From Nitrosarchaeum sp. (GTDB lineage: Archaea > Thermoproteota > Nitrososphaeria > Nitrososphaerales > Nitrosopumilaceae), in contig JAIOOR010000010.1 of the NCBI GenBank assembly GCA_021414365.1, positions 1-61,145 on the forward strand: 61,145 nt of DNA, in the 5' to 3' direction. The first letter of the stretch is position 1. The number at the start of each line of letters is the position of its first letter. Shown here piece after piece: positions 16,939-40,186 of the stretch. A model generated the notes under the pieces. The model saw only the letters and a program-made list of their open reading frames with translations. It did not search any database and was not told the origin of the DNA. The translations under genes and the position numbers were made by a program.

Positions 16939-17103
16939 TTAATTTTTCATTCTTAGTATTAACTGAGTCAATCCTTCTATGGTATGTTCTATTCCATGCT
17001 CCTCAATAGAATGTTTTTGATATTTTTCGATTAACTCCGAATCATTTCCTTCTATCTCATATTTACAGTCAAAACCATAATTACAACAAGATATTTTTGT
17101 CAT
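16939..17103 (-). CDS. DUF1059-like small Cys/His protein, 54 aa
   Basis: A short frame from ATG at 17103 to TAA at 16939. The protein starts MTKISCCNYGFDCKYEIEG and has Cys at 6, 7 and 13 and His at 31, 36 and 40, with the HSIEEHG segment. This layout matches DUF1059 proteins, small Cys- and His-containing proteins common in archaea whose role is unknown; metal binding is plausible. A GC-rich multi-hairpin segment lies 110-190 bases upstream on the same strand and could be its leader or a separate RNA. Confidence 0.7.
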   Translation of the reverse strand: MTKISCCNYGFDCKYEIEGNDSELIEKYQKHSIEEHGIEHTIEGLTQLILRMKN

Positions 17104-17136: not shown

Positions 17137-17155
17137 AGTTTGTTCAATTAACTCA
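17137..17155. promoter_or_regulatory. Weak match to recurring 19-bp palindrome
   Basis: On the reverse strand the half AATTGAACAAACT matches the right half of the strong site at 43735, but the left half is degraded. It lies 34-52 bases upstream of the DUF1059-like gene. It is listed as a weak candidate only. Confidence 0.25.
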
Positions 17156-17213
17156 AATAGGCTTTGTAATGACAATTCTAATTTTTCTGAATATGAAAAT
17201 TTTAATCTGTAAC

Positions 17214-17290
17214 CTCCCCCGAGGGGAGTCGCAAGGGACGCGACATCCCATCGAGAGTTATCGATGACAAATAATATCACCCCATTGGGT
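17214..17290. ncRNA. GC-rich multi-hairpin segment, possible structured RNA
   Basis: In a very A+T-rich gap, about 77 bases form a row of stem-loops. CTCCCC/GGGGAG with loop CGA is at 17214-17228. GGGAGTCGC pairs with GCGAC-A-TCCC across a 7-base loop, giving nine pairs with one bulge at 17224-17249. CATCGA/TCGATG is at 17249-17266, and ACCC/GGGT at 17279-17290. The first two share bases and exclude each other, as in an attenuator. No frame explains the segment. Strand is not determined; it may be a small RNA or the leader of the DUF1059-like gene on the reverse strand. Confidence 0.5.
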
Positions 17291-17370
17291 TAATTGGATA
17301 TTGTATGTACGAATTACTCACTCTGTTTATTTTTCAGAAATTGCTGAGATATTTTTTAAATTAGAAATAA

Positions 17371-17688
17371 TTATTCTTCAGTTGTTATAGCGACTCGATT
17401 CTTCAAGTTTTTGAGAAATTCACGAATTTGTTCATGTTGTTGAACAGTTTTATAAATTATATACAATTCATCATATGATAGGTTTAATTTTTTCAAATCC
17501 TCTTGTGATATACCATAGTGATTTAATACTGCCCAGCAAGATACTGAAACTTTTGGTCTGGTTACAGCACAGGTGCCCATCTGTATTGATATTTTATACA
17601 TAGTATCATATTCACAGCGAATCTTATACGTTCTCTGGAAAAACAAGTCAAAATCAGGTACCGTTATGGAACAAAATCTACAAAACAT
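17371..17688 (-). CDS. Hypothetical protein, up to 105 aa
   Basis: The longest frame starts MFCRFCSITVPDF, but an internal Met at residue 30 (MYKISIQMGTC) may be the true start. The body has a TCAVTRPKVSVSCWAVL segment with spaced cysteines, then a helical tail ending NRVAITTEE. I do not recognise a family. If the longer start is right, a CxxC pair at the N-terminus could bind metal. Confidence 0.5.
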   Translation of the reverse strand: MFCRFCSITVPDFDLFFQRTYKIRCEYDTMYKISIQMGTCAVTRPKVSVSCWAVLNHYGISQEDLKKLNLSYDELYIIYKTVQQHEQIREFLKNLKNRVAITTEE

Positions 17689-17763: not shown

Positions 17764-18147
17764 ATGAAAGAGCAGGTATATGGTACAGAAAAAGGACATA
17801 TCAACAAAGTTGTATCTTGGTTAAATGAACAAGCAGAATCTGAAGGTTTGAAACTGAAGTTAAAATCTGAAGACTATTTGTTATCGACTCAAAATTTTGG
17901 TGATTTTGAATTGTTTTCAGTATCCGATGATTCGCTCCTAGTCAGAAAATTAATTTCTAAAGCTGGAAAAAGATTTAACATAAAAATGATTGAAGGAGGG
18001 TATAAAGAAAAAGCAAGAATAATTCGCAGAAGAAAGTCTGATTATGCCAAAGTCCTAAAAGGTGATAAAGTCGTTGGGCATTTAGAATTAGAATCTGCCC
18101 GATTTGGGCCCCTAAAATGGGAGATTAAAGCTGAAGAAAGACGTTAG
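17764..18147 (+). CDS. Hypothetical basic protein, 127 aa
   Basis: A soluble protein with a mixed alpha-beta body and a strongly basic segment (KARIIRRRKSDYAKV) near residues 82-98, ending WEIKAEERR. The basic patch could bind nucleic acid. No known motif is seen. It is divergently arranged from the 105-aa gene, with a shared promoter region of about 75 bases. Confidence 0.65.
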   Translation: MKEQVYGTEKGHINKVVSWLNEQAESEGLKLKLKSEDYLLSTQNFGDFELFSVSDDSLLVRKLISKAGKRFNIKMIEGGYKEKARIIRRRKSDYAKVLKGDKVVGHLELESARFGPLKWEIKAEERR

Positions 18148-24818: not shown

Positions 24819-25628
24819 TTAAATGGAAGATACCATTTCCATTGGTTTTGATTTTTTCCACATATGATTGCACAGACTGAACATGTTTTCAACCATTTCT
24901 TCAGAATTTGTATACATGATTGAATCTACTTCATCAATCAGGTCCATTGATTCTTTCATTGCGCCTGACATGATAAGTTGTCGTTTTGTTTCTACTATCA
25001 TTCTACTTTTTGATGGTAGTTTTCCAATTCTAACTTCTGTAGCACCTAGCTGATTAATAATTTCCATAGTCTTTGAATTACACTCGTTTGTAATGATTTT
25101 GATATCCGCGCCATCATTTACTCGTGCATGGATTTTATCTGGAATGGATGTGTGATACATTCTCATTAAATCCTCTGATGTAGTGACTAGGAAAATTTTG
25201 TTTGTTGATTCTTGAATCAGTTTTCCAATTCTAGTGTAGATGTTAGATCTTCCTTGTACAATTGAGAACGAAGACAAATCCGTAGGAGTTGTTTCTCTTT
25301 CATAATTGTTTAGATTTTCTACAAGAGTTCTTGCTAATTTTTGCAACATGATGATCTCATCTTCCTTTTTTTGAATCACACTTGTTAATGCCTCAGATGG
25401 TTGTACAGCATTTACAATTGTAGGATTTGAAAAGGTTGTAGAGATAACGCCCATATTTCTTAGCTTGTTTAAAGATCTGTATGCTTTCCCTCTATCTACA
25501 TCCAGTTTTTGTGCCATTGTGCCAACAGTTACAGAACCCATTTGAAGTAAACCGACATAGATTTTTGCATCAATTTCTTCTAACCCGAAATGAAACAGTG
25601 AAGTGTAAATTTCATCTTTGCTTACCAT
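24819..25628 (-). CDS. TrmB family regulator beside the archaellum locus
   Basis: A 269-aa TrmB protein with a winged HTH at residues 5-85 (GLEEIDAKIYVGLLQMG, then VDRGKAYRSLNKLRNMGVI) and a C-terminal phospholipase-D-like sensory domain. It is divergent from the first archaellin gene with only about 220 bases between them, so it is the best local candidate to regulate the archaellum operon. That role is inferred from position. No self-site of the recurring 19-bp type was found directly at its own start. Confidence 0.88.
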   Translation of the reverse strand: MVSKDEIYTSLFHFGLEEIDAKIYVGLLQMGSVTVGTMAQKLDVDRGKAYRSLNKLRNMGVISTTFSNPTIVNAVQPSEALTSVIQKKEDEIIMLQKLARTLVENLNNYERETTPTDLSSFSIVQGRSNIYTRIGKLIQESTNKIFLVTTSEDLMRMYHTSIPDKIHARVNDGADIKIITNECNSKTMEIINQLGATEVRIGKLPSKSRMIVETKRQLIMSGAMKESMDLIDEVDSIMYTNSEEMVENMFSLCNHMWKKSKPMEMVSSI

Positions 25629-25790
25629 ATTACATTCCTCTCTGTATTTGGGTGATATTTATTTCTGATCTACTATGCGTAATTATATACGGTAGATACT
25701 GTTGTTTACTTGTCATCATAGGTATAACAGAAATTTGTATAATTAGATGTTGTATGTATATCATAAACGAACAACGAATTTTTTCTGAAC

Positions 25791-25809
25791 TGTATGTTCA
25801 CTCCATACA
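25791..25809 (+). promoter_or_regulatory. Recurring 19-bp palindrome upstream of archaellin 1
   Basis: TGTATGTTCACTCCATACA has perfect 6-base arms and a 7-base spacer. It directly abuts the sequence CACTCTAGGATATACCC, which contains a TATA-like GGATATAC. The same downstream stretch recurs before archaellin 3. Its place just upstream of the TATA-like box is where archaeal activators bind. Confidence 0.6.
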
Positions 25810-25848
25810 CACTCTAGGATATACCCAAACCACACTATTCTCTAATCA

Positions 25849-26562
25849 ATGAAATTACAACGAAAGGGAACGCGACATTCTCATCGTGGAGTCATCGGTG
25901 TAGAGTCTGCAATAGTTATGATTGCATTTGTAATCGTAGCAGCAGCCTTGGCATTTGTTGTACTAAACATGGGATTCTCTACTTCGCAAAAAGCAAAGAC
26001 AACCATTCTTTCAGGATTGGCAGAATCAAGTAGCAGCTTGGAAGTCTCTGGTAAAGTTATTGGAGTTGGATGTACTACCGCTGCTGGTAGCTGTACCAGT
26101 TCACCAGTGCTTAATGCAACTGCAATACCAATCAAAATTACATCTGGTGGTGATTCAGTTGAATTATCTGCTGCAACCACAACAGTAAGCTATGTCAGCA
26201 ATTCAAAACAATACACTGACATTTATGTTGGACCACTTCCAGCAACAACAGAATATCGTTCATTGTCAGATGCATTTGATGGTGCTGTAGGTGTTTTGAG
26301 TGGATTTTCAGGTACTGTACAACCAATTACAGGAACAAATCCATCTTCAACTAGTGCATTTGTTTATTGGACTGTAGCATCAAACACCAATGCAATACTA
26401 GATCAAGGTGAACACGCTATTTTGGCAATCGCATATGCTTCTGCTGATAGACCAGCTGCATTGGATAAAATCAGAGCTGAAATAATTGTGTCAACAGGTG
26501 CTTCATTGACAGTAGAAAGACAAGTTCCAAACATCACTACTAGCGTAGTAGATCTAGGTTAA
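25849..26562 (+). CDS. flaB: Archaellin 1
   Basis: A 237-aa filament subunit of the archaellum. A basic leader MKLQRKGTRHSHRG precedes the class III cleavage site, giving a mature start VIGVESAI followed by a long hydrophobic helix (VIVAAALAFVVLNMGF) that forms the filament core. The C-terminal beta domain ends VPNITTSVVDLG. A CTTAAGSC cysteine pair near residue 70 is unusual for archaellins. It should be cut by FlaK at 6.9 kb. A short hairpin terminator follows. The name arlB is also used. Confidence 0.95.
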   Translation: MKLQRKGTRHSHRGVIGVESAIVMIAFVIVAAALAFVVLNMGFSTSQKAKTTILSGLAESSSSLEVSGKVIGVGCTTAAGSCTSSPVLNATAIPIKITSGGDSVELSAATTTVSYVSNSKQYTDIYVGPLPATTEYRSLSDAFDGAVGVLSGFSGTVQPITGTNPSSTSAFVYWTVASNTNAILDQGEHAILAIAYASADRPAALDKIRAEIIVSTGASLTVERQVPNITTSVVDLG

Positions 26563-26605
26563 ACCAGTTTTCTGGTTTTCCCAATTTTTCTTCTTTTTAA
26601 TTTTT
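26561..26605 (+). terminator. Hairpin plus T-rich tail after archaellin 1
   Basis: AAACCAG-TTTT-CTGGTTT (26561-26577) overlaps the archaellin 1 stop codon and is followed by a T-rich tract. It would end most transcripts here and favour high expression of the first archaellin, with archaellin 2 started from its own promoter. Confidence 0.6.
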
Positions 26606-26630
26606 AAAATTAAACTAGTCTGTTTGAATT

Positions 26631-26649
26631 ATACACACTTGATCATATA
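26631..26649 (+). promoter_or_regulatory. Recurring 19-bp element upstream of archaellin 2 (degenerate)
   Basis: TGTTTGAATTATACACACT has the full left arm TGTTTG and a decayed right arm CACACT. It sits 25 bases before the GTG start, just ahead of a TATA-like ATCATATACTATTATA. The placement agrees with the sites of archaellins 1 and 3. Confidence 0.4.
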
Positions 26650-26673
26650 CTATTATACGATTGTTTAAAATTA

Positions 26674-27387
26674 GTGAATTTACAAAGGACGCGACATTCT
26701 CATCGTGGAATTATTGGTGTAGAGTCTGCAATAGTTATGATTGCATTTGTAATCGTAGCAGCAGCCTTGGCATTTGTTGTACTAAACATGGGATTCTCTA
26801 CTACACAAAAAGCAAAAACCATAACTACTTCAAGCCTTGAAGAAGCAAGCACTGCCATGGAAATTTCAGGCACAGTATTTGGAATCGGGTGCACAAGTTC
26901 ATCTGCAAGCTGTGATTCAATACAAAAAATTAACGCAACAATAATTCCAATAAAAATTGCGGCGGGTGGACAATTAGTAAATTTTGCTCCGGGTGTAACT
27001 GCAATCAGCTTCTTTTCAAAAAACGTCGAATATACAAATATCTTTGCAGGCACAATAACTGTTGATGAATACAAACAGCCAATCCTAGCATTCAGACAGG
27101 CGGCATTAGAAGCAGGCGCTGCCTTTGATGCATTTAATGGATCAAATCCTATTAATGGTACACTGCCGAGTGAAACCACTGCATTTGTTTACTGGCCAAA
27201 AAGATTAAACACAAACAGTATTTTAGAATCAGGTGAACACGCTGTATTGGCAATAGGATTTGCCGATTCTGATAGACCTGTAGCAGGTGAAAAAATCAGT
27301 ATTGAAATAATGCTATCTGATGGCGGAACATTGTCAATAGATAGAATCATTCCTAACATTACTAGAGAAAATGTAGACCTGGGTTAA
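26674..27387 (+). CDS. flaB: Archaellin 2
   Basis: A 237-aa archaellin starting at GTG. The leader MNLQRTRHSHRG and core helix are nearly identical to archaellin 1, also at DNA level over about 110 bases, while the rest of the protein differs clearly. This pattern suggests gene conversion or selection limited to the N-terminal polymerisation helix. A Cys pair is again present (GCTSSSASCDS). The C-terminal end is IPNITRENVDLG. A T-rich tract follows the stop. Confidence 0.94.
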   Translation: MNLQRTRHSHRGIIGVESAIVMIAFVIVAAALAFVVLNMGFSTTQKAKTITTSSLEEASTAMEISGTVFGIGCTSSSASCDSIQKINATIIPIKIAAGGQLVNFAPGVTAISFFSKNVEYTNIFAGTITVDEYKQPILAFRQAALEAGAAFDAFNGSNPINGTLPSETTAFVYWPKRLNTNSILESGEHAVLAIGFADSDRPVAGEKISIEIMLSDGGTLSIDRIIPNITRENVDLG

Positions 27388-27437
27388 TCTTAGCAAAAGT
27401 CTTTTTTCTTCTTGTTTTATTTTAACACCCATACTAG

Positions 27438-27456
27438 TGTTTGATCACCATAAACA
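27438..27456 (+). promoter_or_regulatory. Recurring 19-bp palindrome upstream of archaellin 3
   Basis: TGTTTGATCACCATAAACA has 6-base arms around a 7-base spacer and directly abuts the same CACTCTAGGATATACCC promoter block as archaellin 1. It shows that the operator with its promoter was duplicated or kept together with the gene. Confidence 0.6.
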
Positions 27457-27495
27457 CACTCTAGGATATACCCAAACCACACCATTCTCTAATCA

Positions 27496-28115
27496 ATGAA
27501 ATTACAACGAAAGGGAACGCGACATTCTCATCGTGGAGTCATCGGTGTAGAGTCTGCAATAGTTATGATTGCATTTGTATAATTTCTAGTCTAGAGGAAG
27601 CTAGTAGCTCAATGCAAGTATCCGGAAAGGTAATCGCGGGAGGAGACGTCAATAATGCATGGATCCATACTGTAGGAGTACCAATCAAGATTGCATCAGG
27701 TGGTGATGTAGTAAACTTGAGTAACGCAACAATGGCAGTAAAATATGTCAGCAACTCAATAAACTATGATGACATCTATGTAGGTGCAATGAACGGTGAA
27801 TACAAGAGTTTATCATCTGCTGCAGCAGCTGCATTAGCAGATAACTCTGGTGATATGGCCGACATTGATGCCAATCCATTTGTATCTGGATTGTCGACAA
27901 ATACTCGTGCATACATTTACTTTGCACAAGAAGTCAATAGCAACGATATACTAGAACAAGGTGAAACTGCAGTGCTTGCAATCACATTCAAATCTGGTGA
28001 TACACCACAAGTACTAGACAAGATCAAAGCAGAAATAATCATCCCAACCGGGGCTGCATTGACTGTAGAGAGACAAATTCCACCAATCACAACAAGCATA
28101 GTAGATTTGGGCTAG
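27496..28115 (+). pseudogene. flaB: Archaellin 3, interrupted by an out-of-frame deletion
   Basis: The gene begins at ATG 27496 with the same leader and core-helix start as archaellin 1, but meets TAA at 27580 after 28 codons. From 27579 another frame resumes at ATA ATT TCT and runs to 28115 as a normal archaellin C-terminal part ending ITTSIVDLG. Compared with copies 1 and 2, 24 codons of the core helix are replaced by two bases, a loss of 70 nt at a short TAAT microhomology. The product cannot polymerise. The lost part is identical among copies, so an assembly collapse cannot be excluded. Confidence 0.8.
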
Positions 28116-28124
28116 GAGATTAAA

Positions 28125-29204
28125 ATGCTCCACCCACCAGCTTTTTTCTTAAAATTTTTTTTAAACGAAAGTAATCAAAAAACTATCATAATCTCTTCAT
28201 TTGCTACTTATTTTTTAGTGGCATACGAATTATTTCCATATTTGATATTTGATGAACAGAATTTCTTGTTTAGTGTGATTGTTCCATCGGTAGGATTAAT
28301 TTTTGGACTCTATTGGAAAAAGATTCCTTTGAAAATATTTTCATCAAAAAACAAATCAACCAAAGCAAATAATCCCATTAAAGAAAAACCCGTTGAAGAC
28401 TCTATTGAAAGCATGGTTAATTCTTATGCAGAAGATGATAAGATGGTGGTTTCAGATGGTACCATAGGAAATTCTGAGATTGAAGCCATGTTGGCAAGAA
28501 CCAATACTGCCCCATCAGCACAAGAAACACCTGATATTGAATCATTACTTGCAGGAACTGACTCAAACACATTTGATGTTTCTTCAAATGATCAAAATTT
28601 AGATGCACAGATGATGATAATGGAAAAAATTGAGCCTATAGAAAACGCGATTAGCACATTCAAATTAGATTTTGATCAGTTCAAGCAAGATCTAATCATG
28701 GTAAAAGAAGAAGTAGATGCCCTATCTTCATCATTTGAAAGTACAATGACTGAAATTAAATGTATTACAACTGACTTTAACAATCCTCTAAATTTTATGA
28801 ATCATGATTCTATTAGACAAAATATTCAAACAATTGATGTTGATAAATTAATTAAACCTACTATTTCTACATCCATATCTGAAAATATACGTGAACCAGA
28901 ACCAGTAAGAGAACAAATACGTGAACCAGAACCAGTAAGAGAAGAGATTGAAGAATCTACAAAAGATATTGCACATTTACCTGAAGAGATCAAAGCAGTT
29001 GTAGAAGAATTCTCAAATGATTTTTCACCTGAAGAAGTATACGAGTTAGCAAAAATTCACTGTAAAACATCAAAAATTGCATTAGATGAAAAACAATTGG
29101 CATTATTTATAGATAAAAAAAATAATTCAGATGAATTAAAAAAGAAATTTAACATATCTGAATCAGCGCAGTCAAAACTTTCAGTTTCAAGTGATGTGAT
29201 ATAA
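28125..29204 (+). CDS. FlaX-like archaellum accessory membrane protein
   Basis: A 359-aa protein in the exact place where crenarchaeal flaX lies (flaB-X-G-F-H-I-J). Two hydrophobic helices cover about residues 20-65. They are followed by a long charged cytosolic part with a predicted coiled coil near 170-225 and a helical C-terminal domain near 285-345. A perfect-like tandem repeat (IREPEPVREQ, IREPEPVREE) links them. No FlaC/D/E domain is seen. By position and shape it may form the cytosolic ring around the motor as FlaX does, but sequence similarity is not evident. An AGGAGAT ribosome site precedes the ATG. Confidence 0.75.
   Translation: MLHPPAFFLKFFLNESNQKTIIISSFATYFLVAYELFPYLIFDEQNFLFSVIVPSVGLIFGLYWKKIPLKIFSSKNKSTKANNPIKEKPVEDSIESMVNSYAEDDKMVVSDGTIGNSEIEAMLARTNTAPSAQETPDIESLLAGTDSNTFDVSSNDQNLDAQMMIMEKIEPIENAISTFKLDFDQFKQDLIMVKEEVDALSSSFESTMTEIKCITTDFNNPLNFMNHDSIRQNIQTIDVDKLIKPTISTSISENIREPEPVREQIREPEPVREEIEESTKDIAHLPEEIKAVVEEFSNDFSPEEVYELAKIHCKTSKIALDEKQLALFIDKKNNSDELKKKFNISESAQSKLSVSSDVI
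28887..28946 (+). repeat. 30-bp tandem duplication inside the FlaX-like gene
   Basis: Two nearly identical 30-base units (28887-28916 and 28917-28946) begin ATACGTGAACCAGAACCAGT and encode IREPEPVREQ and IREPEPVREE. The repeat is in frame and lengthens a Pro/Glu-rich linker. Confidence 0.85.
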
Positions 29205-29683
29205 TGGCAGCTGGTGTTCTAAGCGAAGGTGTATTAATTATCGCATCTGTCATATTGGCAGGAATGATTACGGGAATTGTTATTAGCAAAGTTGGTTCAT
29301 TTGAAAGTTTTTACACTGCTACCACAGAAGCACAAAAAGAAAAACTGTTAAACAAATTTGAAATAATACATGTAGTAAAAACAAATAATACATCAGTTGA
29401 CATTTGGGTAAAAAATACCGGATTATCCCCAATTCAAAAATTAGATTCTATGGACATATATTTTGGCCAAATTCATTCGGCACAATTAATTCCATACAAT
29501 CAAGGCTCCAATCCGCAATGGGTATTTGGAGATGACACAACACCGAGTTCTATTTGGTCTCAAGGAAATACCGTTAAAATCACTTTACAAGATGGCACTG
29601 CTTTACAATCTTCAACTTCATATGAATTACAAATGATTATTTCAAATGGTGTATCTGATGACACGATTTTCTCAGTAAACTAG
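29204..29683 (+). CDS. flaG: Archaellum stator-like protein FlaG
   Basis: A 159-aa protein with one N-terminal helix (SEGVLIIASVILAGMITGIVI) and an extracellular beta-sandwich domain. This layout and the order FlaX-like, FlaG, FlaF fit FlaG, which together with FlaF contacts the S-layer and anchors the motor. Its start overlaps the stop of the FlaX-like gene (TAATG). The hydrophobic helix resembles that of archaellins, as in known FlaG. Confidence 0.88.
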   Translation: MAAGVLSEGVLIIASVILAGMITGIVISKVGSFESFYTATTEAQKEKLLNKFEIIHVVKTNNTSVDIWVKNTGLSPIQKLDSMDIYFGQIHSAQLIPYNQGSNPQWVFGDDTTPSSIWSQGNTVKITLQDGTALQSSTSYELQMIISNGVSDDTIFSVN

Positions 29684-29692
29684 GTGATCAAA

Positions 29693-30202
29693 ATGGGGTT
29701 AAGTGTTGCAATAAGTGGGGGAATCATCATGTTTGGAATAATTTATCTCATGTTTTCGCTAAGTGGTCTTACAGATAGCATTGCATCTATTTCGGATTCA
29801 TCAATGCACAGTTCGGATTTAGAAAATAAACTTGTAAAAACATCTATCACGATAAATTCAATTACTGCTACTGGTACAACTTCTAACGTTAGTATAGTTA
29901 TAAAAAATGATGGGATTGAAAAACTGTGGGAATTTGAAAAATTCAACGTGATAATAACTTATGAAAGTTCTGGTACTACATATACAGAAAATCTGATATA
30001 TACAGATACATGTCCTTCAAGTCCAGGCCAATGGTGTCCTCTTTCATTTAATAATGATGTGATAGATCCAAAAATTCTCAATTATAATGAAACTTTGAGC
30101 ATTGATGCTAAAGTATCCAACAACATTACAGCCCTTACTAATGTTATTTGTGTAGTTTCAACACAAAATGGAGTTGTTGCAACAGAAACTACTGTGGCGT
30201 GA
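29693..30202 (+). CDS. flaF: Archaellum protein FlaF
   Basis: A single-span protein (MGLSVAISGGIIMFGIIYLMFSL) with an outside Ig-like domain that in other archaea binds the S-layer and works with FlaG. A GTG nine bases upstream would lengthen it by three residues, but AGGTGATC, a strong match to the 16S anti-Shine-Dalgarno, overlaps that GTG, so ATG 29693 is the likely start. Two Cys pairs in the outer domain (TCPSSPGQWC) may form a disulfide. Confidence 0.85.
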   Translation: MGLSVAISGGIIMFGIIYLMFSLSGLTDSIASISDSSMHSSDLENKLVKTSITINSITATGTTSNVSIVIKNDGIEKLWEFEKFNVIITYESSGTTYTENLIYTDTCPSSPGQWCPLSFNNDVIDPKILNYNETLSIDAKVSNNITALTNVICVVSTQNGVVATETTVA

Positions 30203-30205
30203 TTC

Positions 30206-30224
30206 TGTTCAAAAAAATCAAACG
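30206..30224 (+). promoter_or_regulatory. Recurring 19-bp element before flaH
   Basis: TGTTCAAAAAAATCAAACG keeps the arms TGTTCA and CAAACG around 7 bases. It is followed within ten bases by a TATA-like TTAAATAA and lies in the only real gap (77 bases) of the archaellum operon, so it may drive an internal promoter for flaHIJ. Confidence 0.5.
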
Positions 30225-30279
30225 TTTTCTTAAATAAAAAATTTCCATAGTTACATTGTTTCGAAATTGAGGTGCAAAT

Positions 30280-30993
30280 ATGGTTTCCACTATTCCTACT
30301 GGTAACGAAGAATTCGATAGACAATTTGGTGGGGGTATACCTACACCGTCACTAGTATTCATAGAAGGAGAGCATGGTACTGGCAAGAGTGCAATCTCCG
30401 CTCAAATAATGAACGGATATCTAACAGCCAGAACAAACAAGAAATACAAATTATTATGCATAATTGAAAATACTGTTACACAATATATTCAAAAAATGAA
30501 ATCATTGACATTTAATTTTTCAAAACCATTTGTACGAAATCAATTAATGTTTGTTCCAATATTTATAAAAAATGCTAAATGGTCTGAAAAAAATTCAGAA
30601 AAAATCTTACCTGCAATTAAAGAATTTATCACTAGAAAATTAAATTTAGTAGATGGCATAATTATAGATTCCATCTCTCCAATGGTAATTAATTCTGATA
30701 ATCAATCTATTATGGATTTTTTGTCTTTTTGCAAAGAGATAGTTGCAAAAGGTAAAACAGTGATAATTACTAGTCACTCTTCTGATTTTTCCAAGTCTGC
30801 AAATACAGCTCTTATTGGTGCATCAGATGTTTATTTAAAACTTGGAACTATAATAGTTGGAAGCAGAGAAGTAAAAACTCTAAAAATTGTAAAACTATTG
30901 GGTGCTAAAGATACTCCTGAATCAGGGTTTGCTTTTGAAGTTGATCTAATTTTTGGAATTAAGATTGTCCCAGTGTCTATGGCAAACGCTTAG
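30280..30993 (+). CDS. flaH: Archaellum ATPase-like regulator FlaH
   Basis: A 237-aa RecA/KaiC-fold protein with Walker A GEHGTGKS at about residues 30-37 and a Walker B strand GIIIDSISP. FlaH binds ATP and sits on FlaI inside the cytosolic ring, regulating assembly and rotation. GAGGTG lies just before the ATG. It is the first gene after the operon's only long gap and has its own candidate operator and promoter. Confidence 0.93.
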   Translation: MVSTIPTGNEEFDRQFGGGIPTPSLVFIEGEHGTGKSAISAQIMNGYLTARTNKKYKLLCIIENTVTQYIQKMKSLTFNFSKPFVRNQLMFVPIFIKNAKWSEKNSEKILPAIKEFITRKLNLVDGIIIDSISPMVINSDNQSIMDFLSFCKEIVAKGKTVIITSHSSDFSKSANTALIGASDVYLKLGTIIVGSREVKTLKIVKLLGAKDTPESGFAFEVDLIFGIKIVPVSMANA

Positions 30994-31002
30994 GTGAGAA
31001 AA

Positions 31003-32673
31003 ATGGTATTTAATTTATCTTCAATCCAAGACAAAAACTTTGTAGCAAAATTACAGGAAAAACCATACTTGCTAAAATACGTTGAAGCATATCAGATGAA
31101 AGGAAATCCACTCCCTCTTTTTTCTGAAGAATTAAAATCAGAACATAAAAAGCTCAAAGAACCAAATTTAATTTATACAGTTGCTGAAGATACATTTATC
31201 CATATTAATCCAAACACTACTGCCGATGACGGATACAATGAGTATGTCACAATAGAACCTGAAGAACCTGAGAGAACATTAATGGAGTATGCCGACCGTG
31301 TCTTTGCTGCTAAAGCCGGAGGCCTTGATCCCCCAGCAGAAATTACTGAAAGATTTAACATGGTAAATAATTATCTAAACGATACACTGGTATCTACTTC
31401 AGATCCTGTTGATTATTCTAAATTAGGTGATCCTTTCAAAATTAAGAAACTCCCAGTTCATTCAAAAGAGCTAATCAATCTAAAATATCATTTTCTTCAA
31501 AGAAGGGCAGGTACGGGTCTTTTAGAGCCATTTCTAAATGATCCAAATCTTGAAGATATTTCGATCATTGGTGCTGGAAACATGTACATTATCCATAAAG
31601 CATTTGGAACATTAAAGGTCCCAGTTTTTCTCAGCATTGATGCAATTGATGAGTTAATTGTTAGTTTATCTGAACAATTTGGAAAAACTGTATCTCACGC
31701 AAAACCTGTAGTTGATGCTACATTGCCTGATGGTTCCAGAATTAACATCGTATTTGGAAAAGACATCAGCAGAAAAGGAACAAATGCAACAATCAGAAAA
31801 TTTGCTAGTACCCCATTATCAATAATTCAAGTTCTTTCATCAGGTGTGATGAATTTTACTGAAGCAGGATACCTGTGGATGATGTTGGAGGCAGGGATGA
31901 GTCTTTTTGTAAACGGAGAAACCGCATCTGGCAAAACAACTACTTTGATGGGACTGACCGCATTTATTCCATCTAATTGGAAAGTGGTAAGTATTGAAGA
32001 TACTCCAGAGCTGACATTACCGCACAATAACTGGATTACTGAAGCCACTAGGGATACTGGAAACAAAGCATCAAGTGTCACAATGGATGATTTACTAAAG
32101 GCTGCATTAAGACAACGTCCTAATTACATTCTTGTAGGAGAAATCAGAGGTGCGGAAGGAAATGTTGCATTTTCTGCAATGCAGACAGGTCACCCAGTTA
32201 TGGCAACCTTTCACGCTGCAGGCATGGTTCCACTTATTCAGAGATTATCTAATGCTCCAATTAACATACCAAAAACATACATGGAAAATCTGAATCTGGC
32301 ATTATTTCAAGCGGCTGTACTAAATCCAGAAGGAAAGAGAGTTCGTAGAGTGCTGTCAATAAATGAAATCATTGGAATCTCAAATGAAGGAAACGTGATG
32401 TTCATACCTGTGTTTGATTGGGATGCTGGAACTGATACTGTGAGATTCAAAGGAAAAGGAAGCAGTGCACTTTTCATTTCAAAGGTTTTGGAAAGACGAG
32501 GTATGAAAAGAAGAGATGAGGCACTTTTGTATGATGAGTTGGATTTACGCTCAAAGATACTCGAAAGAATGTTAGAAAAAAAAATCTTTAACTATTATGA
32601 TGTATTTAATGCAATCTCTCATTGTAGAGAAATTGGACTAGAGCAATATTACAAGGAGCTTGCAATGCATTGA
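31003..32673 (+). CDS. flaI: Archaellum motor and assembly ATPase FlaI
   Basis: A hexameric type II/IV secretion-type ATPase of about 556 residues that powers both filament export and rotation. Walker A GETASGKTTT is near residue 305, Walker B is VGEIRGAE near 380, and the His box is in FHAAGM. A GTG nine bases upstream would add three residues; AGGTGA overlapping it is the ribosome site, so ATG 31003 is preferred. The stop overlaps the TTG of flaJ. Confidence 0.95.
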   Translation: MVFNLSSIQDKNFVAKLQEKPYLLKYVEAYQMKGNPLPLFSEELKSEHKKLKEPNLIYTVAEDTFIHINPNTTADDGYNEYVTIEPEEPERTLMEYADRVFAAKAGGLDPPAEITERFNMVNNYLNDTLVSTSDPVDYSKLGDPFKIKKLPVHSKELINLKYHFLQRRAGTGLLEPFLNDPNLEDISIIGAGNMYIIHKAFGTLKVPVFLSIDAIDELIVSLSEQFGKTVSHAKPVVDATLPDGSRINIVFGKDISRKGTNATIRKFASTPLSIIQVLSSGVMNFTEAGYLWMMLEAGMSLFVNGETASGKTTTLMGLTAFIPSNWKVVSIEDTPELTLPHNNWITEATRDTGNKASSVTMDDLLKAALRQRPNYILVGEIRGAEGNVAFSAMQTGHPVMATFHAAGMVPLIQRLSNAPINIPKTYMENLNLALFQAAVLNPEGKRVRRVLSINEIIGISNEGNVMFIPVFDWDAGTDTVRFKGKGSSALFISKVLERRGMKRRDEALLYDELDLRSKILERMLEKKIFNYYDVFNAISHCREIGLEQYYKELAMH

Positions 32674-34178
32674 TTACAAATCTTATTCCTAAAGTTAAAA
32701 ATGTTTTCAGTTCTGGTAGTAAAATTGATGAAAATTTTGTTTATTTTATGGCATATCTGTATAGTATCTCTACTGGTGAAATAGGAGCTGTGGATTTATT
32801 CAAAACAGCAAAAGATTCCAAATACGGAAAATATTCTGCGGCATTCAAAGACACATACAGATTGGGAATAGGATGGTCATATGGTCTTGCATCTGCGTGT
32901 GAGATGATGGGAAAAATAGTTTCAGATAGAAAAGACGATCCGATGAAATTACTTTTAGTGAAATTGTCACAAGTTGTACGATTAGGAGATGAGTTAAAGG
33001 CATTTTTTAGAGACGAGTTAAAAAATTCTATTTTAACATACGAAATAAAATATGAGGCAAATCTTGAATCGCAGAAATTATTTTCCGAAATGTTTTACAC
33101 CTTAATGTCTACCGCAGCATTTATGATTTCCGCAAATTCTATTATGAGTATGTTGATGGGATTTGGAGATTCAGGGCAGATTTTGATAATTTCAATGGTG
33201 GGTACAGGTGGAGGAATGGCAGTTTTTGTAGCAATGATGTTTTTTATGTTCCCTCGAGACAAATTGGCTCATATCAATCCAGTACTTGAACAAAAATTTC
33301 GAATGAAAATTTATCTTGCTGTAGGGGCATGTGTAGGAATATCATCAGTGTTAATAATTATAGATATTGTACCTCCTGTACTTGCTGTAGGGTTGGGTGG
33401 AATCCCATTGTTGTATCCGGGAATTCTTGCAAAAAAGGCAGAATCAAAAATTTATAGTTATACGGAATGGTATCCCACATTCATTCTTCATTTTTGTCAA
33501 TTATTTGCGACCGTAGGTTCGATGGGACAGGCATTACAAGCAGTAATGAGAAGTAATTTTGGAACAATTCAAAATTTTATTGATTCATTTAAAAACAGAA
33601 TTAAAAACAGAATTGATCAAATAATTGGTTTCGAATTATTTTCAATTGAAACTGAGAACCACCTTATTGCAAGTGGTAATTCAATTATATCTGCAGGAAT
33701 TTACAAGGGGGCGGATATGAACATTGTAGGAAACATTGTATCAGATCTTACAAAAAAAATTAATGAGTTAAGAGGAAAAAGAACTCAAAATGCATCAACA
33801 TTTCAACTAGTTGTAATTATCTTACACGTGCTTTCTCTTTCAGTATTTGGATTAATGAATAAACTGACAGAATTATTTAATGGGATATCGGGAGGAGAAC
33901 TATCAAATGTTGCATTCAAATTGACACCGATAGATCCCGCGCTTATGAGTTCTCTTATGCCAGTTCTTGTCATTATGACATCCATAATCAGTGGGTTTGC
34001 AATAAAGATAGTTAAGGGAGGATTATACAAGACAGTATTTTTCTATATTGGATTATTACTTGTTATTGGAGGAGTCTCAATGTATGTAATTAGCACATTC
34101 ATGTCTACATTTTTGGAGCAGATAATATTCACTGCGCCATTGCCTGGAATATTACCTGCTGTAGTACCTGGAGTTTAA
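32670..34178 (+). CDS. flaJ: Archaellum membrane platform protein FlaJ
   Basis: A 502-aa polytopic protein, the only fully integral part of the archaellum motor and partner of FlaI. Several membrane segments are clear: a pair around residues 145-205, one at 215-250 and three or more from about 370 to the end. Two large charged cytosolic loops lie between them. Start is TTG, sharing two bases with the flaI stop, with AAGGAG some ten bases upstream. It is the last archaellum gene. Confidence 0.94.
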   Translation: MITNLIPKVKNVFSSGSKIDENFVYFMAYLYSISTGEIGAVDLFKTAKDSKYGKYSAAFKDTYRLGIGWSYGLASACEMMGKIVSDRKDDPMKLLLVKLSQVVRLGDELKAFFRDELKNSILTYEIKYEANLESQKLFSEMFYTLMSTAAFMISANSIMSMLMGFGDSGQILIISMVGTGGGMAVFVAMMFFMFPRDKLAHINPVLEQKFRMKIYLAVGACVGISSVLIIIDIVPPVLAVGLGGIPLLYPGILAKKAESKIYSYTEWYPTFILHFCQLFATVGSMGQALQAVMRSNFGTIQNFIDSFKNRIKNRIDQIIGFELFSIETENHLIASGNSIISAGIYKGADMNIVGNIVSDLTKKINELRGKRTQNASTFQLVVIILHVLSLSVFGLMNKLTELFNGISGGELSNVAFKLTPIDPALMSSLMPVLVIMTSIISGFAIKIVKGGLYKTVFFYIGLLLVIGGVSMYVISTFMSTFLEQIIFTAPLPGILPAVVPGV

Positions 34179-34346: not shown

Positions 34347-34365
34347 TGTTCTATATGAACAAACA
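34347..34365 (+). promoter_or_regulatory. Recurring 19-bp palindrome upstream of chemoreceptor gene
   Basis: TGTTCTATATGAACAAACA fits TGTTYR-N7-YAAACA and also contains a perfect inner TTGTTC/GAACAA palindrome. A TATA-like TTTAAAA lies about ten bases downstream and the preferred ATG at 34400 is about 20 bases after it. Confidence 0.6.
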
Positions 34366-34399
34366 AATCATTATGTTTAAAATTGGTTTTTATGAAGTT

Positions 34400-35794
34400 A
34401 TGACCATACAAGCCACTAGAATTTTTGATGAGAAAATCAATGAAAAATTCAATGCATCTGATTCAAATAATTCCATCTTTGAAAATGAAAAAATAACTTC
34501 CAAAGTTCTTAGATCATTTAATGAAGCAGTATCTATGTCCGAACAGCTTACCGATACAGTTGCAGAATTAGAAAATGCTACAAAAAGTCAAACCAGTGGA
34601 ATTGAAGAGGTATCTCAATCTATTCAATCCATTGCAATGGCTATACAGAGTGTTGCATTTAACGCAACTAAAACAATGGATAGGATGAAACAATCTGAGC
34701 AAATTACTCGAACTATTAGTGCTGATGCAGAAAAAGGAATGAGTAAAATGAATAGCATGAAATCGATAGTTTCCGAGTCATCAAACGACGTTAAAAAACT
34801 AACTAAAGAATTATCAAAAGTAGATAACATGACAAAATTCATTACTCAGATTGCTGAACAAACAAATCTTTTGGCACTAAATGCAGCAATAGAAGCCGCT
34901 AGAGCTGGAGATGTTGGAAGGGGATTTGCTGTTGTTGCAGAAGAAGTAAGAAGACTGGCAGAAAATTCTAAAAAAGGGGCTGAAGATATTTCTGAATTAA
35001 TTAGTTCTCTTAAAGAATCGTCTGATGAAACAATGAATAGTATAGAGAAAGGCAACAGCGTAGTTCAAGATTCTTATGATGTTATAACAAATATTCTTAC
35101 CTCAATTAATGGGATTACAACATCTATCTCTGAAGTTGTTTCTCAAATGCAAGAAATTTCAGCTGCAACTGAACAAGTTTCAAGTGGTACTGAAGAAGCT
35201 ACTGCAGCCAGTGAAGAGATTCTTTCAGTAGCACAAACAAATTTGAAAAGTTATGAGGATATAGTTATAGCAAAAGAGAAAGAATCACAAATTCTACAAA
35301 ATGTAAATGCAGATATGAAAACAATGGCAGGAATCATTGATGTTTTAGATTCATCTACAATCATATCCATCACAGATGAAAATGGATTAATAACATATGT
35401 AAACAAATTTTTTATTGATGTGGCAAAATTTTCTACACATGAATTAATTGGAAAAAGTCATAAGATTCTTGAATCTGGATGGCATGACAAAAAAGCCATC
35501 GAATCAATTTGGAAAAAAATTAGTGCAGGCATAATATTTCAAGGATATTTCAGAAATAAAGCAAAAGATGGAAGCATATATTGGATAAAGACTTCAATTA
35601 GTCCAATATATGACGAAAATGATCGAATCAAAGGATATGTTAATGCAAGCACCCCAATAACAGAATTAATGATGATGATGGGTCTTGAAGAAGCATGCAG
35701 TAACATAGAAGCAGGAAAACCAGTGAAACCACATCTCAAAAAAATTGTTGAAAAATTAAGATCTGTCAACTATCAAATAATTGATAATATTTGA
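34400..35794 (+). CDS. Soluble chemoreceptor (MCP) with C-terminal PAS domain
   Basis: A cytosolic receptor of about 464 residues without membrane segments. The coiled-coil signalling domain comes first, with the hairpin tip [18 protein letters not shown] at about residues 153-170. A PAS domain follows at about 310-425 ([12 protein letters not shown], then [12 protein letters not shown]). This is the reverse of the usual sensor-first order. The PAS is close in type to that of the kinase at 15.7 kb, hinting at redox, energy or metabolite sensing. Longer frames start inside the operator and promoter, so ATG 34400, a leaderless start, is preferred. Confidence 0.9.
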
Positions 35795-35871
35795 ACGTGA
35801 ATGCTCTTTCAATTTATCAGTATGAAAGATAAAAAATTTTAAAACAAAATAAATATTCAGTAATGATATGT

Positions 35872-35890
35872 TGTTCATATCATACAAACT
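35872..35890 (+). promoter_or_regulatory. Recurring 19-bp palindrome upstream of cheW
   Basis: TGTTCATATCATACAAACT has arms TGTTCA and CAAACT with a 7-base spacer. A TATA-like CTTTTAATC follows about ten bases later, and the cheW ATG is 36 bases from the site. Confidence 0.55.
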
Positions 35891-35925
35891 AGGGATTATC
35901 TTCTTTTAATCATTTCAATAATTTA

Positions 35926-36537
35926 ATGTCTTCAGAGATACTTCTAGATGATGTAATACAAGCAGTGTCGTTTACAGTTTCAGAAAAAACATCAAAAAAA
36001 GGCAATTATGCTATTTCAATTGATCAAGTAAAAGAAATAAGAACGGCAGATGCAATTACAAAAATCCCCAAATCAAAATCATATGTAAAAGGACTAATGA
36101 ATTTAAGGGGAAAGATTATCCCAATTATTGATGTGAGTGAAAAAATTGGTTTAACTAAAACACCCCTCATGGATACTTCTAAACAAAGAATTTTGGTAAC
36201 TGATGTCAATGATACTCTAACAGGATTATTAGTAGATGAGGTAAATGATGTAATTAAAATTCCTACAAAAGAAATTGAATCTGTAGAATTTGGAACATTA
36301 GAAACAAATAGGTACATAAGAGGAATTGCAAAAACAAAAGATAATCTAATTGTATTACTTGATGTTTCAAAATTCCTTAGAGATTCATCAAATAATCTTG
36401 AACAAATCGAAATCAATTCTAATTTAGAAACTAAAACAGAGCATAATGTAAAAAATTCTGAAAGTACATTGACAGAAAATTATGAAATACTGCCTGAAAT
36501 TGATGAATTAATTAAACAGGAAATACAACGACAGTAA
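35926..36537 (+). CDS. cheW: Chemotaxis coupling protein CheW
   Basis: A 203-aa CheW that links receptors to CheA. The CheW fold is clear: VKEIRTADAITKIPKS, GLMNLRGKIIPIIDV, and LTGLLVDEVNDVI. A C-terminal tail of about 45 residues (after residue 155) is acidic, low in complexity and unlike normal CheW. It has its own promoter-like region and operator, separate from cheB. It is the only CheW in the window. Confidence 0.93.
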   Translation: MSSEILLDDVIQAVSFTVSEKTSKKGNYAISIDQVKEIRTADAITKIPKSKSYVKGLMNLRGKIIPIIDVSEKIGLTKTPLMDTSKQRILVTDVNDTLTGLLVDEVNDVIKIPTKEIESVEFGTLETNRYIRGIAKTKDNLIVLLDVSKFLRDSSNNLEQIEINSNLETKTEHNVKNSESTLTENYEILPEIDELIKQEIQRQ

Positions 36538-36594
36538 ATTAGAATACAGTTTAATTTCTTTGATTATTTTCAATATGAAAAAATGATTAGAGTG

Positions 36595-36613
36595 TGTTCG
36601 TCTCAAACATACA
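36595..36613 (+). promoter_or_regulatory. Recurring 19-bp element upstream of cheB
   Basis: TGTTCGTCTCAAACATACA fits the 6-7-6 layout (TGTTCG/CATACA). It lies about 90 bases before cheB in a gap that should carry the promoter of the cheB-A-C-R transcription unit. Confidence 0.5.
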
Positions 36614-36704
36614 TCAAATTATTATGAGTTTTTCATTACATTAATCATGATTTGTTTAATTATTGATAAATGTGATTTTATTATTTATGCGAGATGATTG
36701 CTAG

Positions 36705-37760
36705 ATGTTAGAACAACAACTAAAACCAATCAAAGTTTGTGTGGTAAATGATTCAAATCTGATGAGAAAATATTTAAGTGATTTAATAACCTCAGATGAA
36801 ATCGAAGTAATTTGGACTGCGATTGACGGAGAGGACGCAATTACAAAAATCACTTTAAAACAACCAGATGTTGTTTTATTAGATTTAGAAATGCCCAAAA
36901 TGGATGGACTTACATTTATTGAAGAGATGGTAAAATCTGGAACATTACTTCCAATAATCGTAGTAAGTTCATTTTCTCAAAAAGGTGCTAAAATTGTTTT
37001 AGATGCATTAGAAAATGGTGCTGTTGATTTTGTAACTATTCAATCAAATATTCAAGATAACGAAAATTTAAAAGAAACACTTGTAACTAAAATAAAAATT
37101 GCGTATAATTCAGATCCATATCAATTAATTCCAGAAAAAATTCACTCACTTAGACCAAAACATCAAGGAATTCAGATGATGAATAGTTCCGAAAGATTAG
37201 TTGTTATAGGTTCTTCTACCGGAGGTCCTGGAACTATTCAAAAAATTTTAAGTGAATTGCCTACAGATCTACCTGCTGGAATTTTATTGGTTCAACACAT
37301 GCCAAAAAATTTTACACAACAATTTGCATCTAGATTATCTGAAAACTCTGGATTTGCGGTAAAAGAAGCAAAGGAGGGGGACATGATCAAGGATGGTGAA
37401 ATTCTAATTGCTCCCGGGGATTTTCATATGATAGTACAACCAAATAGAAAAATACATCTGGATTCAAGTGAAAAAAGATTTGGTGTAAGGCCATCTATTA
37501 ACATGACAATGATTTCGGCATCAGAAGTTTATGGTGCTGATCTTGTAGGGGTAATTCTAACTGGAATGGGACATGATGGAGGATTTGGAATGAAAACCAT
37601 TAAAAAAAGAGGAGGTCATACAATAGTGCAAAATAAAGAGACATGTGTAATATTTGGAATGCCTAAAGAAGTCATTGATCTTAATGCTGCAGATCATATT
37701 TTACCCTTAAACAAAATTTCTTCCAAAATTTCAGAGGAGATTCAAAAACTTGTCAGATAA
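36705..37760 (+). CDS. cheB: Protein-glutamate methylesterase CheB
   Basis: A 351-aa enzyme that demethylates or deamidates receptors. The N-terminal receiver has acceptor D60 in VVLLDLEMP. The C-terminal esterase has the triad S171 (IGSSTGG), H198 (VQHMP) and D291 (TGMGHDG). Its 3' end overlaps the preferred TTG start of cheA, so the two are coupled. All key residues are intact. Confidence 0.95.
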   Translation: MLEQQLKPIKVCVVNDSNLMRKYLSDLITSDEIEVIWTAIDGEDAITKITLKQPDVVLLDLEMPKMDGLTFIEEMVKSGTLLPIIVVSSFSQKGAKIVLDALENGAVDFVTIQSNIQDNENLKETLVTKIKIAYNSDPYQLIPEKIHSLRPKHQGIQMMNSSERLVVIGSSTGGPGTIQKILSELPTDLPAGILLVQHMPKNFTQQFASRLSENSGFAVKEAKEGDMIKDGEILIAPGDFHMIVQPNRKIHLDSSEKRFGVRPSINMTMISASEVYGADLVGVILTGMGHDGGFGMKTIKKRGGHTIVQNKETCVIFGMPKEVIDLNAADHILPLNKISSKISEEIQKLVR

Positions 37761-39309
37761 TAATTATCGTGAGATGTATGTATCTGAGGCACTTGAGCAC
37801 GTAACTATTATCACTCAAACACTTTTACAGTTAGAAAAAAAACCTGATGAAAGATCATACTTAGATCAGATTTTTCGTTCAGCACATACAATTAAAGGAA
37901 TGGCATCAACTATGGGTTATCACGATACGGTAGAATTATGTAAAAATATTGAAAATATTTTTGATGAGATTAGAAATGGTGTTGAAAAACTAACTTCTCA
38001 TATTGCAAGTATTCTCTTTATTTGGATTGATCTTTTACAACAGATGATATCTGATGAAAAATTAAAAATTGATTTAGATCCATATTTGAAAAGTTTAAGA
38101 AATCCAGAAGAGGTAAAAAATCATTTAGAACCTAAACCCTCTACAAATGTTTCAAATACAATTCGAGTGAAAATGTCTGATCTTGATTTGTTAGTAAATG
38201 TGGTTGGTGAACTACTTATTTCAAAAATGAGATTAAAACAAGCTATTGAAAATAAAGATTATGATGAATCAAAACAAATAATGAATGAAACTGATAGATT
38301 AATTGCAGATTTGCAATATAAAACAATGCAAGTACGCCTAGTTCCAGTAAATCAAATTTTTGATAGATTCAGCAGAACCGTAAGAGATGTTTCTAAACAA
38401 CTAGGAAAGCAAATTAATTTTGAAATGCATGGGTCTGGAATAGATCTTGATCGAAGTGTTTTAGATTCAATTACAGATCCATTGTTACATATTTTAAGAA
38501 ATTGTGTAGATCATGGAATTGAATCTGTCGAAGAAAGAATCCAAAATAATAAATCCAAAATAGGTCAGATTACGTTAACTGTTACTCGAAAAGGAGACAA
38601 TATTCTAATCATAGTAGCTGATGATGGAAAAGGAATTGATGCAGAAAAGGTAAAAGAAAAAGCAGTTGAAAAAGGAATCATTACCAAAAATGAAGCAATC
38701 AAAATGAATCATCAAGAAGCAATTCGCTTGATTGGTTCTCCTGGACTGTCTACAGCTAAAGAAGTCACAGATATCTCTGGGCGGGGTGTTGGTATGGATG
38801 TAGTAATCTCCAACGTTGAATCAGTTGGAGGGTCATTGAATATTCTCAGTGAATACGGAAATGGAACTACTATGATTCTGACCTTGCCTTTGAATATTTC
38901 AATAATTAAAGGATTAATAATTCTAGTTTCAAACCAACGATTTGTACTACCAATATCAAGCATTGTGACTACAGTAAACATACCACGTACTGAAATTTTT
39001 TCAGTGCATGGAAATGATGTAATAAAATTTCAAAATAGTATCATCCCATTAATAAAATTAAATGAATTATTTGAAATACAAGACAAGAAATCATTTGAAA
39101 ATGAATCAATCACTGTTGTAGTTATTGAAAATGAAGAAAAAAATTATGGATTAGTAATTGATTCATTTGAAAGAAATCAGGATGTTGTAATAAAAAAATT
39201 AGAACAAAACGAATACTCTGACTTATTTCTAAATGCAACTATACTTCCAGATGGAAGAGTATCCTTGGTGATCGATCCTTCATTATTAGTTGATTTGGTG
39301 ATTCCATGA
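37750..39309 (+). CDS. cheA: Chemotaxis histidine kinase CheA (no P2 domain)
   Basis: A 519-aa CheA. The P1 Hpt domain carries H46 in FRSAHTIKGMAS. After a short linker (about 105-135) comes P3 (VKMSDLDLLVNVVGELLI), then the P4 ATPase with the N box HILRNCVDHGIE and G boxes DDGKGID and GRGVGMD, and the P5 CheW-like end. There is no room for a P2 domain, so CheY and CheB would be recruited without it. The TTG start is chosen because it overlaps cheB; ATG eight codons in is an alternative. Confidence 0.94.
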   Translation: MSDNNYREMYVSEALEHVTIITQTLLQLEKKPDERSYLDQIFRSAHTIKGMASTMGYHDTVELCKNIENIFDEIRNGVEKLTSHIASILFIWIDLLQQMISDEKLKIDLDPYLKSLRNPEEVKNHLEPKPSTNVSNTIRVKMSDLDLLVNVVGELLISKMRLKQAIENKDYDESKQIMNETDRLIADLQYKTMQVRLVPVNQIFDRFSRTVRDVSKQLGKQINFEMHGSGIDLDRSVLDSITDPLLHILRNCVDHGIESVEERIQNNKSKIGQITLTVTRKGDNILIIVADDGKGIDAEKVKEKAVEKGIITKNEAIKMNHQEAIRLIGSPGLSTAKEVTDISGRGVGMDVVISNVESVGGSLNILSEYGNGTTMILTLPLNISIIKGLIILVSNQRFVLPISSIVTTVNIPRTEIFSVHGNDVIKFQNSIIPLIKLNELFEIQDKKSFENESITVVVIENEEKNYGLVIDSFERNQDVVIKKLEQNEYSDLFLNATILPDGRVSLVIDPSLLVDLVIP

Positions 39310-40046
39310 GCTTACTGTCTTCTGAAATTGAAAAATTAACTGGAACTTTTAATGATTACATTACTGAAAAAACTGTTGGTGCGTTATCTATACTTCTTAA
39401 TGAACCGATTAAACATGAATTAACCATGTTTGAAAATAATTTGAATTCCATAAATTTCAATTTACCTTCAGATGAGATTAAAATGTGTTCAGTCAGATTA
39501 AATGGCAAAGGAGATCTACACATAGAATTACTATACACAGTAAAACTTCATCATGCCGTAAAAATAGCTTCAAAATTAATCGGAACAGAAGTATATGAAA
39601 TCGATGAGATGGGGACGTCTGCATTACAAGAAGTAGCCAATATTCTAACGGGTTCATTTTTTAATGCCTTATCCGATAATACTGGATTTTGTATTGATCT
39701 ATCTACTCCTACATTCAAAGAAGGAGAAATTCGTAATCTGCTTTTAGATCCTACAAAAGATGTTATACGTATTACAAATGATGTTATGATAACTGATGTA
39801 CTTCTTATAGGAGCTACAACTGGAATTGAAATCCATATGTTAATTATACAACATACTGAACATGCAAGAAAATTAATCTATTCAGGAATAAAAAATTCAG
39901 GTAATTTTGAACCTGCTAATTTATTAAATAATGATAGATTGGGAGGGGAAAATTCAGCAATAGAAGAATTACTGGACATGTACAATGAAAATATTCCTAA
40001 CAATATTTCAAAAGATGACATTTTAAAATCAGGTGTTACAAAATGA
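39306..40046 (+). CDS. cheC: CheC-family phosphatase of CheY-P
   Basis: A 246-aa CheC/FliY-type protein. One phosphatase-type helix is clear, SALQEVANILTGS at about residues 104-116, with the expected acidic and Asn residues. The first CheC helix near residue 22-36 (TVGALSILLNEP) lacks them, so it seems to be a one-site enzyme. The C-terminal 50 residues are extra and acidic. Its start overlaps cheA by four bases (ATGA), and its own stop overlaps the next small ORF the same way. Confidence 0.85.
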   Translation: MSLLSSEIEKLTGTFNDYITEKTVGALSILLNEPIKHELTMFENNLNSINFNLPSDEIKMCSVRLNGKGDLHIELLYTVKLHHAVKIASKLIGTEVYEIDEMGTSALQEVANILTGSFFNALSDNTGFCIDLSTPTFKEGEIRNLLLDPTKDVIRITNDVMITDVLLIGATTGIEIHMLIIQHTEHARKLIYSGIKNSGNFEPANLLNNDRLGGENSAIEELLDMYNENIPNNISKDDILKSGVTK

Positions 40047-40186
40047 TGATCGTAAATAAATTAGTCTTAAAGAATAAAAAAACTCCACTAATTTCAGAAT
40101 ATTTACCTTCATCTGATGAATGTTGGGTTAGATTTTATTGTAATTTACAGATGATGGTAAAAAGAAAAAAAGGTGAAAAAAGATGA
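40043..40186 (+). CDS. Unlisted 47-aa ORF coupled between cheC and cheR
   Basis: The frame starts with ATG ATG in an ATGA overlap with the cheC stop and ends at TGA inside an ATGA overlap with cheR. The product starts MMIVNKLVLK, has a central DECWVRFYC segment with two Cys and a Trp, and ends in a strongly basic KRKKGEKR. The double 4-nt overlap means translation would pass from cheC through this frame to cheR. AAAGGTG near its end serves as the cheR ribosome site. No known family is recognised. It may be a linking peptide or a real small chemotaxis protein. Confidence 0.6.
   Translation: MMIVNKLVLKNKKTPLISEYLPSSDECWVRFYCNLQMMVKRKKGEKR

Follow-up and report, generated by a model that had tools for sequence, protein, structure and literature searches.

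Short intergenic RNAs that act in trans have been described in Haloferax volcanii (PMC6490895), and multi-copy noncoding RNAs in picocyanobacteria, where the abundant Yfr103 occurs as several paralogous copies per genome with a conserved structure (PMC5069720). The palindromic REP/RAYT elements (related to IS200/IS605) are likewise intergenic hairpins that are scattered through the genome and have a bulged stem. The element reported here has something of all three: it is short, structured, intergenic and without a coding frame (as are the Haloferax RNA genes, whose mode of action it would share if it is transcribed), it keeps its structure across multiple paralogues within a genome (as does Yfr103), and it consists of dispersed hairpins, one of them bulged (as do REP elements). 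Yet it differs from the Haloferax sRNAs in forming a multi-copy paralogous family that is tied to one archaellum lineage and known from sequence alone; from Yfr103 in its domain of life and its size (~120 nt here vs. 290–328 nt), the likeness being one of description with no sequence relation claimed; and from REP/RAYT elements in its low copy number, its long conserved single-stranded 3′ block, and the lack of a Y1 transposase in most carriers.

In Nitrosarchaeum limnia, a large motility locus—an archaellum–chemotaxis island—has been reported (PMC3043068), and an island of the same kind lies beside the RNA studied here. The available part of that paper names another conserved noncoding RNA, common to N. 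maritimus (which is stated to be without flagellar genes), and makes no mention of an RNA of this family. Our literature search found neither a description of an RNA matching this family nor a paper describing an RNA that belongs to the archaellum system. Objects of this kind are already known; what is new is the RNA family, and what is unusual is its tie to one archaellum lineage.

Extent and Fold of the Element

The window (i.e., the whole 61,145-nt stretch of Nitrosarchaeum sp. contig JAIOOR010000010.1 analyzed here) contains a gap of ~25% GC that holds a hairpin-rich island, where GC content reaches 0.45–0.49 (80-base windows, 17180–17299) against ~0.20–0.30 around it, as the first-pass annotation had recognized. 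The + strand of 17200–17310 has a predicted folding energy of −35.2 kcal/mol (z = −2.6), which 1 of 200 dinucleotide shuffles equaled, and the − strand gives z = −2.5. The island had been placed at 17214–17290 and is indeed there, but 17290 is set too early as its end: homology with the other copies carries the element to ~17331, and the best-conserved sequence block (TTGTATGT...TCACTCTGTTTA, 17301–17329, weakly structured in the alignments) falls outside the earlier interval. At full length, the element spans 17212–17331 on the + strand, where the structure model R2 matches with 117.8 bits over model positions 1–119, and it has 24 other homologous copies.

The hairpins are those originally drawn—H1, a nine-pair stem with one bulged A, H3, and a weaker fourth around CACCCCATTGGG. 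All coordinates that follow are on the + strand. H1 (17214–17228; CTCCCC/GGGGAG, loop CGA), identified by folding and covariation, and the nine-pair stem (17224–17249; GGGAGTCGC at 17224–17232 with GCGAC-A-TCCC at 17240–17249) both use GGGGA 17223–17227 and therefore exclude each other, so that the proposal of two mutually exclusive hairpins is borne out. The nine-pair stem comprises helix H2 (17228–17244; GTCGC/GCGAC, loop AAGGGAC), which is paired across copies and replaced by ACGTCGTAA/TTACGACGT in copy L043, together with an extension (17224–17249; GGGA 17224–17227 with TCCC 17246–17249, the bulged A 17245 lying between the two parts) that is paired in 83% of cells over 25 copies. Pairing across copies likewise defines an outer stem (17220–17253; CGA 17220–17222 with TCG 17251–17253), longer in dispersed copies (e.g., CTCTCAAAG/CTTTGAGAG in L065 and CCCAGAGGG/TTCTCTGGG in L047), and helix H3 (17249–17266; CATCGA 17249–17254 with TCGATG 17261–17266).

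A possible long-range pairing, alternative to H2, would join 17240–17254 (GCGACATCCCATCGA) to 17290–17304 (TTAATTGGATATTGT), i.e., GCGACAT... with ...TGTTGT. It is paired in 76% of cells vs. 34–46% when slid, and its support is only moderate because the changes are mostly one-sided. Pairing of the H2 loop with TCCC, as a pseudoknot or as an alternative fold, did no better than shuffles and was rejected.

Covariation, Strand, and Selection

Helices were scored over the 25 copies on an alignment built blind to structure (A5). Here the long stem is paired in 77% of cells vs. 32–47% when slid, and H1, H2, and H3 together in 74% vs. 28–52%, with 22–23 two-sided changes, a number reached in 0 of 500 shuffles. 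H1 alone, on an alignment not fitted to it (A6), has a covariation score of 0.318 vs. 0.005–0.182 when slid, its percentage paired being unremarkable given its C-rich and G-rich arms. Specific compensating changes are found in H1 (CCCTCTC/GAGAGGG in L053, CCCCTC/GAGGGG in L064), in H3 (ATCAA/TTGAT in L058, ATACAGA/TCTGTAT in L049), and over longer stretches in L043 (GGGAG-ACGTCGTAA / TTACGACGT-A-TTCTT) and L055 (CTCTCA...GGGAAGT / ACTTCCC...TGAGAG). The paired changes that the first-pass annotation had proposed looking for in relatives are thus present, and its suggestion of a structured RNA stands.

The RNA sequence itself is under selection. Between the window and genome G008, identity is 85% within the RNA and 58% in the flanks, and between the two genera or distant Nitrosopumilus species it is 68–78% within the RNA and 50–54% in the flanks (random sequence of the same composition gives ~52%). 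Between species, figures of 76–85% for the RNA contrast with 50–58% for the flanks. No protein-coding frame is kept on either strand, and every frame is interrupted in the majority of the 25 copies. At the Rfam gathering threshold, the window and nine loci with copies match tRNAs alone; at a permissive threshold the top sub-threshold match is PrrF (19.6 bits vs. 90). By eye, the alignment has neither a CUGA D box nor a 3′ ACA box, the features sought for box C/D and H/ACA RNAs.

Counts of G-U against A-C pairs favor the + strand as the RNA strand: 13:3 in the extension, 11:0 in the outer stem, 14:0 in H3, and 11:4 in H1 (49 vs. 7 in sum), while H2 alone runs opposite (6 vs. 11). This falls short of proof because the counts take in related sequences, and folding z-scores do not tell the strands apart (means −1.8 and −2.05; −2.7 for the 5′ half on the + strand).

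The strand bears directly on whether the island is, as was originally offered as a choice, a leader of the neighboring DUF1059-like gene or a free RNA. That gene (16939–17103, − strand, 54 aa; PF06348, E = 2e-6) remains next to the RNA in related genomes, where the island copy always lies ~100 bp from its start; a − strand with equal folding potential could serve as a 5′ leader of the attenuator or riboswitch-like type. However, the gene is divergent from the RNA and starts 5′ of it, opposite to the strand that the wobble counts favor, and fourteen copies elsewhere have no DUF1059 gene, nor any common gene, downstream. Moreover, the interval between the RNA and the gene contains a conserved palindrome and a TATA-like stretch, so that the gene seems to be served by a promoter region of its own. 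Given the favored strand and the absence of a shared downstream gene, we regard the leader as very improbable, and a free RNA as the better of the two options.

The palindrome (TTTGTTCA-AT-TAACTCAAAT, 17139–17158) is a candidate operator whose position is conserved in 10 of the 11 genomes. Specifically, the motif TTTGTTCAnnTGAACAAA stands 34–76 bp before the RNA at 10 of the 11 island loci, with weaker versions at L057 and L059 (10–11 of 16 positions) and no good match at L062, and it also precedes two dispersed copies, matching at 14 and 15 of 16 positions; scores of at least 14 of 16 occur in 0.2% of AT-rich background stretches. Similar sites number 14 in the window vs. 3.6 expected. The same motif recurs near gene starts of the motility island (17139, 19639, 34346, 43734, and 46688), which makes it a candidate motility-regulon operator—a lead noticed after the fact. 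Neither a conserved TATA box nor a terminator was found, and the TATA profile is flat, and so uninformative, around all copies.

Family Census and the Motility Island

The window's own genome holds two weak but full-length relatives of the island on other contigs, and these keep the same order of elements when aligned. A sequence-only profile from four copies (R1) found further copies, and a structure (covariance) model from 25 copies (R2), scanned over 250 Nitrosopumilaceae genomes, counted exactly 25 copies, spread over 11 genomes that belong to two genera; scanning a sample of 300 genomes from the order gave no further copy. R1 also matches many other genomes weakly (E 0.002–1), but these matches are judged to be chance, as R2 does not confirm them, and the single match in viral contigs (L072), inside a coding gene, is likewise chance. 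The island is one copy of a previously uncatalogued family of structured noncoding RNAs ~120 nt long, with 11 island copies (one per genome) and 14 dispersed copies.

In every carrier genome, one copy is located in the archaellum–chemotaxis island. In the seven genomes examined in detail, this copy is flanked by the divergent DUF1059-like gene (− strand) and a convergent ORF of 84–113 aa (− strand; in the window 105 aa at 17371–17688), beyond which follow a gene for a 127-aa protein (17764–18147, + strand, an island-type paralogue), a response regulator, and a matrixin-like peptidase. Archaellum genes begin ~8.5 kb to the right (25849–34178, + strand) and include archaellins, a FlaF-like gene, ArlH (30280–30993), an ArlI-type ATPase (31003–32673), and, by position, a probable ArlJ (32670–34178). 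Beyond these lie the chemotaxis genes (34355–40992, + strand; MCP at 34355, CheB at 36705, CheA at 37774, CheC at 39306, CheR at 40183). Gene order from 16939 to ~31000 is kept in five genomes.

The RNA is found only in ammonia-oxidizing archaea with one type of archaellum. ArlH of the island lineage (at least 70% identity) is present in 11 of 250 genomes, exactly the 11 RNA carriers; a diverged ArlH (44–52%) is present in 37 more, all without the RNA, and the remaining genomes have neither. Similarly, the island-type 127-aa paralogue occurs only in RNA-bearing genomes (151 genomes and the four remaining carriers searched). These genomes are related, so the match between RNA and ArlH is not a set of independent observations, and the island copy could have been co-inherited by hitchhiking with the island. 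This restriction to one archaellum type suggests that the RNA may be part of motility control.

The archaellin genes themselves have several peculiarities. Each genome has several of them (25849–27600 and loci L139–L148), with the first ~40 codons near-identical across species, even at silent sites, and 27496–27600 is a truncated copy of the same start; the shared starts and the truncated copy suggest gene conversion or cassette-like archaellin variation. Upstream (25790–25848 and counterparts) stand imperfect inverted repeats of the type TGTTTG N7 CAAACA, which may be operators, perhaps of the TrmB-like regulator at 24819–25628, itself 84–99% identical across island genomes.

The RNA might act on archaellin mRNA: its core AAGGGACGCGACATCCCATCGAGAGTTATCG resembles the first archaellin codons in the sense direction, which would allow it to serve as a decoy, and the 3′ segment of the RNA is complementary to that same motif. 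The RNA's best local match is indeed to archaellin starts in the window, G008, and G125, and the motif GCGACATTCTCATCG is letter-identical in nearly all archaellins examined. Against this, shuffled sequences give sense-match scores in the same range, the ranking for antisense pairing does not put archaellins at the top, and their identity may stem from gene conversion; we consider this account improbable. More broadly, a search for antisense targets among island gene starts gave no conserved base-pairing and no consistent candidate.

Dispersed Copies

Carriers have up to three dispersed copies each, at unrelated sites, such that G000, G008, and G110 hold four RNA copies apiece. The neighbors of the 14 are unrelated genes on either strand, though several copies adjoin response regulators or a histidine kinase. 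Two sets are shared between loci: L051 and L054 are orthologous, and L044 and L047 seem to be so, with neighbors locally inverted. In G000 (contig C21), one copy sits in a ~340 bp gain between thrS and an agmatinase gene, which abut in 12 relatives, and a weak direct repeat (ATGGT) marks the ends of the gain; this insertion indicates that copies are acquired and afterwards retained over long periods. Two local features of G008 were also observed: L047 and L048 have nearly identical 3′ halves and different 5′ halves, as if by gene conversion, and the response regulator just before the copy at 689855 (L048, −371 to −7) is split into two frames.

This dispersal raises the main rival to a regulatory RNA, a mobile or domesticated repeat, i.e., a small non-autonomous, MITE-like element whose hairpins act as DNA and of which one copy became fixed in the motility island. 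Extra copies at unrelated sites and the gain between abutting genes, with its weak direct repeat, speak for such an element. However, neither sharp shared ends nor terminal inverted repeats were seen among the copies, and the flanks of paralogues fail to align; they are old and diverged, while the island copy has been kept by selection in 11 species; and G-U pairing within the helices is a sign of RNA. As for a REP element with its RAYT, the Y1 transposase (PF01797) is above cut-off in only 2 of 11 carriers and absent from the other nine (including G000, G008, and G110), which makes that variant unlikely. A decayed Y1 transposase fragment does occur in G248 (contig C1, 1761140–1761247), 2.7 kb from the dispersed copy at 1763895–1764014. 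Overall, we consider a mobile element unlikely, if the strongest of the competing accounts.

A Possible Role in Motility Control

We lean toward reading the island as the gene for a free-standing noncoding RNA of ~120 nt, transcribed from the + strand, that regulates the motility system. It would be the motility-island member of a small family whose other copies have reached a handful of further sites in the same genomes. In its 5′ half, hairpins would compete for bases, with H1 set against the extended H2 stem, and H2 in turn may compete with the possible pairing to the 3′ half. Such fold switching could hide or expose the conserved, weakly structured 3′ segment, which, once exposed, might bind a protein or an mRNA; the overall mode would likely be that of a trans-acting regulatory RNA of the motility program. 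A more far-reaching version, which is possible but which we hold as doubtful, is that this bistable RNA family belongs to one archaellum lineage as a dedicated component and has spread with it between genera, its trans copies tuning archaellin or chemotaxis genes, perhaps through mimicry of, or pairing with, the start of archaellin mRNA.

To our knowledge, very little is known of post-transcriptional control in ammonia-oxidizing archaea. The covariance model (R2) can now be used to find the family in metatranscriptomes, and, as a structured RNA whose occurrence coincides exactly with one archaellum lineage and which has paralogues in trans, the family offers a concrete gene with which RNA control of archaeal swimming may be tested.
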